A DNA stretch of 32,599 nt. Origin: a virus. The stretch spans positions 1-32,599 of IMG/VR virus record IMGVR_UViG_3300032820_000062; one strand, 5' to 3'. The notes under the pieces are model-generated. The model was not told where the DNA came from and searched no databases. It was given only the letters and a program-made list of their open reading frames with translations. This document shows positions 3,689-27,515 of the stretch, in pieces (position 1 is the stretch's first letter; every line of letters starts with the position of its first letter). The position numbers and the translations under genes were made by a program.

Positions 3689-3787
3689 CCAAAGGGCGCG
3701 GTCGCTGTTGGTTGTTCCTTTAAGAGACACCGGTTGCGTTCGCGCCCTTATTCTATGCGCGTGCAACCCTTTCAAGGACTTGAAACA

Positions 3788-5179
3788 ATGAAAACGATAC
3801 AAGAGCTTCGCGAGGAGCTTCAGTCGCTGACGGACAGGGCGAACGAAATCCTGCAAGCGGCCGACACTGAAAGCCGTGCGCTAACGGAAGACGAACGAAA
3901 TGGGGCTGACGACCTTTTGAAGCAGGCCGATGTAGTTAAGTCTGAGGTCGGACAGCGTCAGTCGGAAATCGACATCCGCGCCCGTGCCGCTTCACTGAAT
4001 GATCATGTTGACGATTCAACGCGCAGGGCTCACGATGGAAGCGTCCGCGTTGATGACGAACCCAATGTGATCGAATCACGCGGCAACATTTCCGTACGGG
4101 ATCGGTCAATGCCGGACTATGGCGGCCGGATCAAAGGGTTCGCGAACAAACGGCAAGCCTACGCCGGCGGACAATGGCTTCGGGCTGTCGTCACGGGTGA
4201 CGAACGCGCCCGCAGTTGGTGCCGCGATAACGGTATGGATATGCAAAGCCGCGCGCTCGGTTTAACCAATAACACAACCGCCGGCTACCTGGTCCCCGAA
4301 GAACTTTCAAGCGCGTTGATCAACCTACGCGAAGAGCGCGGCATTGCGCGCCGGTTCGCGAATGTTCTTCCAATGGGAACCGAGACCGTTTTGATTCCTC
4401 GCCGAACGGGTGGCGTGACGGCTTACGCGATGGGCGACAATCCATCAACAGGCGTCACGGCTTCCGATCCAACAGTTGACCAGATCGAATTGAATGCGCG
4501 GGTCTGGGCAGCATTGACTCAGGTTTCCAATTCGTTGATGTCCGCAGCTGTTATAAATGTCGCGAGCTGGTGCGCTGATGAATTCAGCTATGCGTTCGCA
4601 GACCGCGAAGATGAAGCGCTATTCAACGGTGACGGAACGTCAACGCATCACGGAATCTTCGGGATCACGCAGAAGCTTATGGACGGAAACCATAATGCTG
4701 GGCTGATTACAACGTCAGCCGGCGAGCTTGCTTTCTCAGATCTGACCTTTGCCCATTTCGAAACCGCAATCGGTACGCTTCCGCGGTACGCTGCGAACGG
4801 TGCGGCTTGGTTCGTTTCGCAGTTCGGCTTCGCTCGCGCTATGCAACGGCTCGCGGATACCGTGGGCGGAATGACGTTCAGCGATGTCGGCGCAGGGCTT
4901 GGCCCCAGCTTCTTGGGATTCCCGGTTGTCATTACGCAGGTAATGACCGCCGCAACCGGCGACTCGGCTAACACGGTTCTTGTTGTTCTTGGCAATCTGC
5001 GCCAGGGTGCGACGTTGGGCGACCGCGAAGGGTTCAGCCTACAGGTTCTTCAAGAGCGTTACGCTGAGTTCCTTCAGACTGGTTTGATGGCGACGACGGC
5101 CTGGGACATTGCCGTTCACGGGCTCGGCGACAATACAAACGCCGGGCCGATTGTCGGAATTGAAACTCCGGCCAGCTAA
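3788..5179 (+). CDS. Major capsid protein, HK97 fold
   Basis: Builds the icosahedral shell. The ATG at 3788 is preferred over the upstream in-frame ATGs because AAGGA (3774-3778) is well spaced and the protein then starts directly with a coiled-coil (residues 1-~75: MKTIQELREELQSLTDRANEIL...), the usual scaffold-like delta domain removed by the protease encoded upstream. The body has the HK97 capsid pattern: GYLVPEELSSALINLREERGIARRFANVLPMG, VTASDPTVDQIELNARVWAALTQVSNSLM, FADREDEALFNGDGTSTHHGIFGI and a C-terminal FLQTGLMATTAWDIAVHG. The length, 463 residues, is somewhat long for the family because of the delta domain. Confidence 0.95.
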   Translation: MKTIQELREELQSLTDRANEILQAADTESRALTEDERNGADDLLKQADVVKSEVGQRQSEIDIRARAASLNDHVDDSTRRAHDGSVRVDDEPNVIESRGNISVRDRSMPDYGGRIKGFANKRQAYAGGQWLRAVVTGDERARSWCRDNGMDMQSRALGLTNNTTAGYLVPEELSSALINLREERGIARRFANVLPMGTETVLIPRRTGGVTAYAMGDNPSTGVTASDPTVDQIELNARVWAALTQVSNSLMSAAVINVASWCADEFSYAFADREDEALFNGDGTSTHHGIFGITQKLMDGNHNAGLITTSAGELAFSDLTFAHFETAIGTLPRYAANGAAWFVSQFGFARAMQRLADTVGGMTFSDVGAGLGPSFLGFPVVITQVMTAATGDSANTVLVVLGNLRQGATLGDREGFSLQVLQERYAEFLQTGLMATTAWDIAVHGLGDNTNAGPIVGIETPAS

Positions 5180-13481: not shown

Positions 13482-14363
13482 GTGGCGACGAAAGTTTGGA
13501 CGGGCGCGAAGGATTCAAACTGGGCGGATGCGGCGAACTGGAACCCGGCCGTTGTCCCTGTTGGCGGGGATGATGTTGTTCTGATTGATAACGATGTAGA
13601 CATAGATACCGGTCTAGATCAATCGCTGGTGACGTTGGCATCTCTGAAGATCGATGCAACATATCGCGGAAAGATCGGGACGATGACGGCCTACCTGCAA
13701 GTCGATCCGAATACCTGTTGGATAGGTCGATCAGATGGAACAGGTGAACCGACAGGCTCTACGCAGATCAAGCTTGACTTCGGTGCCGTTGCCGGCTGCG
13801 ATACGATTATCTATTCATCTTCTTCGGTGTCGGCAATGTCGAACTGCCCGCCCATTTGTCTGATCGGTGACCATGCTGCGCACGTATTTGAAATTCGATC
13901 GGGCAGCGTTGGTTTCGCGCTTGGCCCGCTTGAGACAAGTGAGTCTTGCAGCAGAATTCACGTCGGATTTGTGGGCGATAATTCCGCGGGGCCTGATGTT
14001 ATCGTAGGCGGCGGGATGACACCGGCCACGCTGGTCGTGAATTCTGGGAAGTGTAGTTACAACGGCCCGTCTCTGGCAACGGGGCGCTGCCACGGTGGCG
14101 AGCTGACCCTCGACACTATAGGCGCAGTAACGAATTTAACCGTCCGCGGCGGCGTCTGTTATCCGAACGCCTTCACCACGTTGACCGCGTGCAACGCTCA
14201 CGGCGGAATGACTGACTTCACGCAGACGGACGCAACGCGGACGGTGACGGCGATGAACTTCTACCGCGGCGGGTCGGTAAACTGGTCTGAATCTTCTGGA
14301 CGGTTTACTCTAACGAACGGCGTGATCCAGGAAGCGATGACGTTAACCGGGTTGGAAATCTAA
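13482..14363 (+). CDS. Beta-rich fibre-like protein, second of a tandem pair
   Basis: A 293-residue protein starting at a GTG, with AAAGGCGGTGA upstream. It repeats the layout of the preceding protein: VWTGAKDSNWADAANWNPAVVPVGGDDVVLIDN, then LVTLASLKIDATYRGKIGT...LQVD, which aligns with LASLTIKQSYTGTIGV...LQVD of its neighbour. The rest has diverged, and it contains several cysteines (CDTII, SNCPPICLI, ESCSRI, GKCSYN, GRCHGG) missing from the first copy. A duplicated and diverged receptor-side fibre gene is the likely reading. Confidence 0.55.
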   Translation: MATKVWTGAKDSNWADAANWNPAVVPVGGDDVVLIDNDVDIDTGLDQSLVTLASLKIDATYRGKIGTMTAYLQVDPNTCWIGRSDGTGEPTGSTQIKLDFGAVAGCDTIIYSSSSVSAMSNCPPICLIGDHAAHVFEIRSGSVGFALGPLETSESCSRIHVGFVGDNSAGPDVIVGGGMTPATLVVNSGKCSYNGPSLATGRCHGGELTLDTIGAVTNLTVRGGVCYPNAFTTLTACNAHGGMTDFTQTDATRTVTAMNFYRGGSVNWSESSGRFTLTNGVIQEAMTLTGLEI

Positions 14364-25286: not shown

Positions 25287-25538
25287 TCAAACGCTGTCGC
25301 GATCTTCCGCGCGATCTAATACGCTCCGCACGCCGTCCGATCCGACGTAAACTGAAAGCGCGTTCTTCAGATGTGAGCGAACAATCGAAATCGAACCAAC
25401 GTCCGACAATAGGATCGGCTCGTGTTCGCTGCGATCAATGGTCGTTCGGTTTAGAATCTGATACCGGATTTCGTCGATCAGCGCCGCGCAGTCGCGGAGC
25501 CCAACAAAATAGCTTTCTTCTGCTTTCGTTAGCTTCAT
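25287..25538 (-). CDS. Small protein, unknown function
   Basis: An 83-residue protein from the ATG at 25538, with GAAAGGAAG upstream. It is acidic/helical (MKLTKAEESYFVGLRDCAALIDEIRYQILNR...SIVRSHLKNALSVYVG). No family is recognised. It is the first protein gene after the long structured RNA, with its ribosome site only about 10 nt beyond the last RNA hairpin, so the RNA may be its 5' untranslated region or be processed away from it. Confidence 0.6.
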   Translation of the reverse strand: MKLTKAEESYFVGLRDCAALIDEIRYQILNRTTIDRSEHEPILLSDVGSISIVRSHLKNALSVYVGSDGVRSVLDRAEDRDSV

Positions 25539-25555: not shown

Positions 25556-26561
25556 GCCCGCGGCCAATTCCGCGGGCGGGTCGAGACAGCGCCCGATAGG
25601 GGCGGGTCGAAGGGCCACTTGCAGCTTCCGGTAAGCCTTCCGTTCGATTCGGATCAGTGATATGTTGCATCTATCTTCAGATGGGTCCAACCGTTTCCGC
25701 GAATTCTAGGACCGACTTGCCATTGCGAGCGGTGCCTTGTCCGGGCCGCCCCTATCAGACGCTGTCGTTTTTATGTGGTGCCGAATCGCAAGCCGCTTTC
25801 CGAGCTTACGACTCTGGTAGCTCTTCACCTTCAGGCCCGAAGGCCGTACTAACTCGACTACCCTAGCCCGCTGCGTCACGTCACGGACCTGGCTACAGTT
25901 GTCGGCCATTGCTGGCCGGTACTTTGTAGACCTGCTGGCTACCCGGTCTTTGCGTTGCCCGTCTACCCTGCCCTTTATCCCGTCGCCGGGAAGGCATGGC
26001 TGACCGGTCTACGAATCGGGGCTTACTAAGCCAGCCGATCAGTAAACCGCCCACTTGCTAGGGGTTGTTTTAACGTCGATAGGTGCTGCGCCGATCATCG
26101 TCCGCTCGTATCATCACCGTAGTAAACGGCTCCGAAGCGGCCCGCGATTCGGCACCACATTGTCTTGAGCGCCGAAAGCCACCGGCTATACGTTCCAGGT
26201 CTGATTTGTCCCGATAACGAAAAGCGGTCGAAGTTTCGCCTTTCGTGCAGCCGTTAGTCTGCGACGCCCCAGCGACAGGTAGCTATCACAGGTCGCCGGC
26301 TTTCGCCGTTGTCCTATGACTGGGAAATCGGAGGAACCTGTCAAGTTTTAGATTCAAATCAGATCGTCTTAGCTCCGACAAAAGCCGGTGCCTTTCGACG
26401 CTCAAGTTTTTTATTTCCTGACCCGCACAAAGTTCTTCGGGCCCCTTGGCTTGACCGGCTTCATTCAGCCGCCCACGCGCTTCGTCGCGTTGTTGTCCGC
26501 GTCGTCCGTGTTATTCAGTTTTAAAAGACCGTTTGGGTTTTGTTTCTTTCCCAACCTCACT
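25556..26561 (-). ncRNA. Long structured non-coding RNA (~1 kb)
   Basis: On the minus strand from the start predicted by the promoter at 26568-26596. There is no credible protein gene on either strand. Elements in RNA order: a ~150-nt leader shared with the short RNA; a 5' domain with GNRA hairpin CGGC-GAAA-GCCG (26308-26297); a 26-bp helix, fully paired with two G-U (26160-26135 with 25798-25773), enclosing many hairpins such as GTAGACC/GGTCTAC, GGCTT-AGT-AAGCC and GGCC-UUCG-GGCC; a 3' domain closed by a 21-bp helix (25766-25746 with 25605-25585); and a final perfect 8-bp hairpin (25577-25556). The 3' domain recurs in the short RNA with compensatory base changes. Size and phage context recall GOLLD/ROOL-type giant RNAs; family membership is not established. 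Confidence 0.85.
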
Positions 26562-26567
26562 ATACAT

Positions 26568-26596
26568 ATTATACAACATTTAAGATCGTTTGTCAA
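26568..26596 (-). promoter_or_regulatory. Consensus sigma70 promoter of the long ncRNA
   Basis: Reading the minus strand: TTGACA (26596-26591), 17-nt spacer, TATAAT (26573-26568). Both boxes and the spacing are perfect. The predicted start is near 26561, inside the repeated leader. Confidence 0.92.
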
Positions 26597-26649
26597 GTAG
26601 AATCTGGTTGGAATCACGATATTTTTAACACGATGTAGAATATAAAGTG

Positions 26650-27021
26650 ACGCTTTCTGGCGCCGTATATCCGCACGGCCCGAAGAACTTTGTGCGAGTC
26701 GACAACGCCCCGGCGGAGCGGGTTCGATAGGGCGGCTTATCCGCGTGGTGTGAGCCTTCCGTTTGATTCGGATCAGTTGAGCCCAACCGTTTCCGCGAAT
26801 TCTAGGACCGACTGACCAGCGGTAGCGGCCGCCTTGGGCGACCCGCCCCGCCGGGACGTTGTCTTTGGTTTATTTCCTGACCCGCACAGAGTTCTTCGGG
26901 CCCCTTGGCTTGACCGGCTTCATTCAGCCGCCCACGCGCTTCGTCGCGTTGTTGTCCGCGTCGTCCGTGTTATTCAGTTTTAAAAGACCGTTTTGGTTTT
27001 TGTTTCTTTCCCAACTTCACT
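26650..27021 (-). ncRNA. Short structured non-coding RNA (~0.37 kb), paralogue of the long one
   Basis: Minus strand, from the promoter at 27028-27056. It has the same leader as the long RNA but goes directly into the 3' domain. Its closing helix has 23 pairs (26863-26841 with 26723-26701) and differs in sequence from the long copy while keeping pairing. The inner blocks CGGTCCTAGAATTCGCGG... (26783-26813) and the 25-nt block at 26753-26777 are almost identical to the long copy, and a hairpin present in the long copy between them is absent. A 3' tail (26700-26677) is complementary to the leader over 24 nt and would close the molecule. The 3' end is approximate; no T-run is seen. Confidence 0.8.
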
Positions 27022-27027
27022 ATACAT

Positions 27028-27056
27028 ATTATACAACATTTAAGATCGTTTGTCAA
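27028..27056 (-). promoter_or_regulatory. Consensus sigma70 promoter of the short ncRNA
   Basis: Minus strand TTGACA (27056-27051), 17-nt spacer, TATAAT (27033-27028), identical to the promoter of the long RNA. Start near 27021. It diverges from the plus-strand promoter at 27229. Confidence 0.92.
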
Positions 27057-27228
27057 GTAGAATCTGACCAGATTCGTAATAAATACAATCTAAAGTTGCA
27101 CTGGAATGGGGTGGGGCGATTCCTGCCCCTTGGCGCATCGGCCCCGTCTATCCGGCCAACCTGGAATAGAACGGCACCCAGACGCGAGCTATGCGGCCCA
27201 GGTTCGACCGTGAACGATCCGGCCGCGG

Positions 27229-27263: not shown

Positions 27264-27515
27264 ATGAAGACAGAAGCAACAGCGACAGCGACAGAGCCAC
27301 CGACGCCAGCCGTAGCTCCGCGCGGTAGACCTGCCGGCAGAATCCATACCGCCAGGATGGATCTACGGTTACCGGTTGAACTCAAGCGCGCCGTGATCGT
27401 CATCGCCGAATCTGTCGGACTGCGCGAAGCGGATGTGGTACGCGAAGCGCTGCGCCACGCGGTTTGTGACGATGACGAACGCGAACGCCTGATTGCTCGA
27501 TTGCTCGACGATTAA
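27264..27515 (+). CDS. Ribbon-helix-helix DNA-binding regulator
   Basis: An 83-residue protein. The frame is open far upstream through the RNA repeat, but the ATG at 27264 fits the promoter and starts a sensible protein. Residues 1-31 are a flexible T/A/P-rich and basic arm (GRPAGRIHTAR); 32-37 MDLRLP is the ribbon strand, 38-52 and 54-67 the two helices (VELKRAVIVIAESVG, READVVREALRHAV) of an RHH/CopG-like domain; the tail is acidic. It likely represses a promoter nearby, either its own or the divergent RNA promoters about 170 bp away. Its own mRNA appears leaderless, as with lambda CI. Confidence 0.75.
   Translation: MKTEATATATEPPTPAVAPRGRPAGRIHTARMDLRLPVELKRAVIVIAESVGLREADVVREALRHAVCDDDERERLIARLLDD

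Follow-up and report, generated by a model that had tools for sequence, protein, structure and literature searches.

The window analysed here, IMG/VR record IMGVR_UViG_3300032820_000062 taken at its full length (32,599 nt, linear, perhaps a fragment), is the record of a tailed phage that carries on its plus strand genes for TerL, the portal, a protease, the major head protein and RepO-like, RecE and RecT proteins. Between 27.1 and 23.7 kb a unit lies on the minus strand in the order promoter, S, promoter, L, an 83-aa ORF, a DUF932 gene, a terminator, a DUF6197 gene and a second terminator (Table 1). S and L had been proposed, in a preliminary description of this DNA, to be structured RNAs encoded by paralogous minus-strand genes, and our analysis bears this out: promoter and leader are about 98% identical over ~195 nt, and the 3' domains have a core of ~79 nt in common, interrupted in L by a 23-nt insert.

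Table 1. Features of the S/L region and of the genes downstream of it, listed along the minus strand
Feature	Positions	Strand	Remarks
Perfect palindrome GAATCTG-GT-CAGATTC	27060-27075		just upstream of the S promoter
S promoter, TTGACA-17-TATAAT	27028-27056	minus	12/12
S RNA	~27022-26660	minus	~0.36 kb
S leader	26903-27022	minus	two small hairpins
boxA of S, TCTTTTAAAACTGAAT	26972-26987	minus	40 nt after the -10 box
5' arm of S closing (leader-trailer) helix	26879-26902	minus	boxC-like TCTGTGCGGG at 26890-26881
S 3' domain	26701-26863	minus	closed by a 23-bp helix
S core motif	26750-26828	minus	near-identical to the L core motif
3' arm (tail) of S	26677-26700	minus	pairs 23/24 with the S leader, 24/24 with the L leader
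L promoter, TTGACA-17-TATAAT	26568-26596	minus	12/12
L RNA	~26562-25552	minus	~1 kb
L leader	26407-26562	minus	arm 26443-26420 has no long partner inside L
boxA of L, TCTTTTAAAACTGAAT	26513-26528	minus	39 nt after the -10 box
L domain II	26164-26406	minus	closed by a 24-nt near-perfect helix; z -6.6
L domain III	25773-26160	minus	closed by a 26-bp helix; z -7.4
L 3' domain	25585-25766	minus	paralogous to the S 3' domain; closed by a 21-bp helix
L core motif	25631-25732	minus	contains the 23-nt insert 25681-25659, which lengthens a hairpin
Terminal GC hairpin of L, without U tract	25556-25577	minus	next ribosome binding site follows closely
83-aa ORF	25287-25538	minus	directly downstream of L; no family match
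DUF932 gene	25219-24128	minus	after the 83-aa ORF
Terminator	24101-24080	minus	after the DUF932 gene

The DUF6197 gene is bracketed by two near-identical strong terminators, the one listed in Table 1 and a second at 23712-23691 on the minus strand. At the other end of the unit the palindrome is a possible operator; upstream of the L promoter only one half of it remains. A divergent small-protein gene (27264-27515, plus strand), accompanied by a plus-strand promoter-like site, is weakly similar to repressors of the Arc/CopG type (PHROG E 0.014), and its product may act on the palindrome to control the S promoter.

All six inverted repeats scoring at least 14 in the 32,599 nt, as found by a strand-neutral scan, fall within 25585-26902, against a background of 25 of such score in 487 kb of other viral loci. 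The predicted folds have energies of -188 kcal/mol for S (z -10.3) and -440 kcal/mol for L (z -9.8). Considered by domain, the z-score is -12.2 for the S 3' domain with its closing helix and -4.4 for the L 3' domain, with domains II and III of L in between (Table 1), and the leaders alone are unremarkable (-1.7 and -0.5). A fold scan with a sliding window of 200 nt gave an outlier in S only, on both strands, the long helices of L spanning more than 200 nt and hence being invisible to it. Domains II and III are each represented by one sequence, and their structure is based on thermodynamics and on inverted-repeat statistics. The insert in the L core matches, at 22 of 23 positions, the plus-strand stretch 13643-13665 inside a phage gene (13482-14363; E 1.6e-4), and it looks like a short templated insertion.

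Concerning the helix that closes the 3' domain, it had been reported that 21 pairs in L (25766-25746/25605-25585) and 23 in S (26863-26841/26723-26701) are formed, that both strands changed between the copies at pairs 5, 11, 12, 13 and 14, and that other pairs moved between Watson-Crick and G-U. On recheck the arms and the both-strand changes were exact, and the remaining shifts were located at pairs 10 and 17, where one side changed and G.U is involved. All 21 pairs of this helix remain paired in both S and L. Under a model of six independent changes per arm, five coinciding changes have P = 0.0017, and the pairs were all kept in none of 300,000 simulations; pairs 10-14 are contiguous, so that their changes were possibly not independent events. 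Template switching is able to make and correct stems in single events (PMC8794818), and one such event could explain the block at pairs 10-14. When the long helices are read on the minus strand, wobbles are G.U in nine cases and A.C in one (8 to 1, P = 0.02, if one S-tail wobble counted in two helices is dropped), which argues for selection on RNA, since a process acting on DNA only would give equal numbers. This strand bias is beyond what template switching accounts for. Moreover, the core between the arms is near-identical in S and L, and the surrounding arms diverged with their pairing kept. The earlier claim of direct evidence for selection on RNA pairing is thus upheld as regards the compensatory changes and the 9:1 excess of G.U, but it has to be read as a comparison of two copies in one genome, in which pairs 10-14 possibly arose by one template switch. 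Taken together, we consider it very likely that S and L are structured, paralogous phage RNAs.

We searched the region with Rfam models, including GOLLD, ROOL and OLE, and found no match at gathering score; with E values up to 10, three fragment matches appeared, far below the cut-offs. These sequence-structure models (no match, E up to 10) rule out GOLLD, ROOL, OLE and HEARO, and Rfam likewise rules out an origin from rRNA, group I/II introns, ribozymes or riboswitches; the bodies of the RNAs have no likeness to 16S, 23S or 5S rRNA in this search even at E 10. The whole 32.6-kb record has no tRNA gene. A protein-coding origin was also rejected, as the ORFs of at least 50 aa tested inside S and L had no PHROG match below E 0.2, and the reading frames of the region gave no protein family in this comparison.

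No homologue of S or L was found in IMG/VR or in the phages, plasmids and genomes sampled. The comparison with phages and plasmids by blastn returned chance-level pieces only, and scanning IMG/VR for patterns taken from the core or the leader gave nothing convincing, although such scans need exact short matches and homologues differing by more than a few motif bases would escape them. One of these scans yielded 14 matches, which were rejected because they had no covariance-model match and the rest of the motif was absent. Following DUF932 through IMG/VR led to no convincing homologue, the DUF932 phages had no match to the RNA model, and the small gene that precedes DUF932 in these phages is not conserved in sequence. 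Relatives identified by TerL (in IMG/VR and genomes, at most 50% identity) had no convincing RNA match by DNA or by covariance model. The leader, compared with 398 Pseudomonadota genomes, gave two short matches, and neither stretch contained a boxA or the start of a 16S gene. ROOL, sought so that its upstream sequence might be inspected for boxA, was found in none of 199 Bacillota genomes. A scan of IMG/VR for promoter plus boxA produced 21 matches, mostly attributable to chance in AT-rich coding sequence, and Rfam found nothing in the 15 of them that were searched. It is likely, as the preliminary description had suggested, that S and L form a new RNA family, known from one genome.

The promoter scores in Table 1 are matches to the sigma70 consensus. 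Shortly after each promoter, as in antitermination leaders of the rRNA type, lies the 16-mer TCTTTTAAAACTGAAT, which we took to be boxA-like before testing it. The pattern TCTTTNAAAACTGAAT occurs twice in the whole record, both times in the S/L leaders, and never in shuffles (expected 0.00), all motif statistics having been computed post hoc, once the motif had been seen. The same pattern is present in 6 of 59 Verrucomicrobiota genomes, lying just upstream of the 16S gene in three of the six, and in 2 of 61 Bacillota and 1 of 60 Pseudomonadota genomes, in none of these at an rRNA gene; outside Verrucomicrobiota the 16-mer is rare, with about one match per 30-60 genomes sampled. Beside 16S the Verrucomicrobiota form is TCTTTGAAAACTGAAT (loci L106, L107 and L108, near position 1500). 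The phage boxA is a T form, one base off this G-variant, and the T form was found beside 16S in none of the genomes sampled; the one-base difference might be useful for host identification.

The gap between the -10 box and TCTTT, 40 nt in S and 39 nt in L, is 40 nt in E. coli rrnB P2, and in all three it contains a hairpin, which is weak in S. The phage boxA fits GYTCTTTAANA (PMC5725501) at 9 of 11 positions, this being the gamma-proteobacterial consensus. In another viral contig, L122, whose genome is GC-balanced, a TATAAT box and a TTCTTTTAAAACTGAA leader, together at 3779-3824, precede protein genes; this may be an antitermination leader of a phage. The boxA leader of S and L, a feature absent from the preliminary description, gives a concrete candidate mechanism for making the two RNAs.

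Leader and tail of S pair in a 24-bp helix that closes the RNA, much as the leader-trailer helix cut by RNase III does in rRNA. The 5' strand of the S helix carries the boxC-like sequence UCUGUGCGGG. This agrees with boxC, UCUGUGUGGG (PMC10250234), at 9 of 10 positions; chance alone would give about one match as good as this in the whole record (mean 1.26), so that its position in the closing helix is the sole argument for boxC. In the L leader the corresponding match is 8/10, and its arm has no trailer in L. In E. coli rrnB the same scan found a helix that equals the S helix in length, 24 bp, and in its one G.U, which likewise falls on the middle G of GGG. The best partner in the genome for the L leader arm is the S tail, with every one of the 24 positions paired (-46.8 kcal/mol), one more than between the S leader and its own tail (-43.1 kcal/mol). 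This complementarity may reflect an interaction between S and L or a recent copying of the leader from S to L.

With moderate confidence we propose that S and L are a new phage RNA family made by rRNA-style antitermination and RNase III processing, a reading that derives from the sequence of one genome. As S and L are long and untranslated and carry the same signal at the same distance as rRNA, the simplest reading is that host Nus factors make them and RNase III releases them. Protection from Rho by Nus antitermination complexes of the boxA type has been described for rRNA and CRISPR RNAs, which are long and untranslated (PMC12691694). After initiation at the consensus promoter, RNA polymerase would soon transcribe boxA, and this would bring in NusB-S10 together with the other Nus factors; so modified, the polymerase could traverse the long untranslated RNA without being terminated by Rho. 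The 5' arm of S and the boxC-like sequence in it would be retained close to the polymerase until the tail has been made, at which point the leader-trailer helix would close and RNase III would cut it, freeing the folded core. The closing helices of the L domains would be handled likewise, and it should be noted that the helices, 21-26 bp long, are near-perfect and of about two turns, as is characteristic of RNase III substrates. The common core motif suggests a common partner, to which mature S and L would both present it. More tentatively, and with considerable doubt, the locus might be regarded as a phage pseudo-rRNA operon, in which two genes with the layout promoter, boxA, boxC, leader-trailer and second boxA would produce two non-ribosomal RNAs, the S tail (24/24) supplying the second strand of the leader-trailer helix of L, either in trans or within one joint transcript.

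The continuity between L and the genes that follow it could also mean that L is a structured 5' untranslated leader, 1 kb long, of an ORF83-DUF932 operon, with a boxA resembling lambda nut and serving operon antitermination, domains acting as attenuators or stabilisers rather than as free RNAs, and S as a duplicated leader. No terminator separates L from ORF83, whose ribosome binding site follows immediately, the first clear terminator comes only after DUF932, and in contig L122 the boxA-like leader stands directly before protein genes. However, S possesses the same leader and core without a gene of its own, each copy retains its own perfect promoter, and 1 kb with three closed domains far exceeds any attenuator known to us, so we judge this explanation unlikely.

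We regard as improbable that S and L assemble into RNA-only multimers or cages through contacts of the common core, even though phage origin and a size of ~1 kb recall GOLLD and ROOL, which form cages (PMC12286853), and the S core includes UAGAAUUCG, a conserved and mostly unpaired stretch that contains GAAUUC, a palindrome; the Rfam results, the lack of tRNAs nearby and the long, near-unbroken helices, which point to a modular fold, speak against it. Two strongly promoted transcripts with boxA, and helices in the size range of RNase III, would also suit decoys, abundant RNAs sequestering NusB-S10 (or, by their long duplexes, RNase III) and so turning the host from rRNA synthesis, but a conserved core and elaborate domains would be superfluous for a sponge and boxA is positioned as in functional leaders, which makes this quite improbable. 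It is very improbable that the inverted repeats reflect only DNA-level events (template switching, mobile inverted repeats) with no RNA role, as the single block at pairs 10-14 and the insert copied from a phage gene might suggest, given that the wobbles are G.U on the minus strand, nine to one, that the loop core is near-identical between copies whose surrounding helix diverged, and that promoters and boxA agree on the same strand.

We know of no function for GOLLD, ROOL and similarly large RNAs of phages, and to our knowledge it has rarely been asked how phages produce long untranslated RNAs despite Rho. An rRNA-type leader on this pair of RNAs offers a direct, testable answer in one case, suggesting that the phage may borrow the bacterial machinery for making rRNA in order to make large non-coding RNAs. 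A search of phages for boxA followed by long closed helices is a route to further cases, and the compact S beside a full-size L would be helpful for structural work.

Among known systems, OLE resembles L in being a large RNA with a small protein gene immediately after it, but Rfam gave no match and the 83-aa protein belongs to no family found. Both GOLLD and ROOL occur in phages and prophages. GOLLD is often near tRNA genes; its cage is a 14-mer, and that of ROOL an octamer. Like S and L, GOLLD is large and carried by phages, and it combines a common 3' domain with a 5' part that varies more (PMC12286853); S and L differ from it in having no Rfam match even at E 10, no tRNA in the record, an rRNA-type leader and a mini paralogue alongside. 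With ROOL, which is phage-borne, elaborate and without a known protein partner (PMC12286853), S and L share these three properties, again with no match to the Rfam model. What links S and L to GOLLD and ROOL in these data is size and phage origin. Phage nut sites and the leaders of CRISPR arrays (PMC12691694) resemble the S/L leaders in having boxA outside rRNA, where it serves to take polymerase through untranslated or long operons, whereas in S and L boxA precedes closed structured RNA domains, followed in L also by genes. Compared with a bacterial rRNA operon, the bodies of the RNAs match no rRNA model in Rfam, boxA lies 97 nt from the boxC-like sequence in S and 22 nt from boxC in E. coli, and L has its own promoter and no trailer in cis. 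The order of elements, on the other hand, is that of the rRNA leader, with a promoter, then a small hairpin, then boxA at 39-40 nt from the -10 box; the closing helix of S has 24 bp and a G.U in the same place as in E. coli rrnB, and its 5' strand contains the boxC-like sequence; and, as in the rRNA operon, two RNAs stand in series with a boxA before each.
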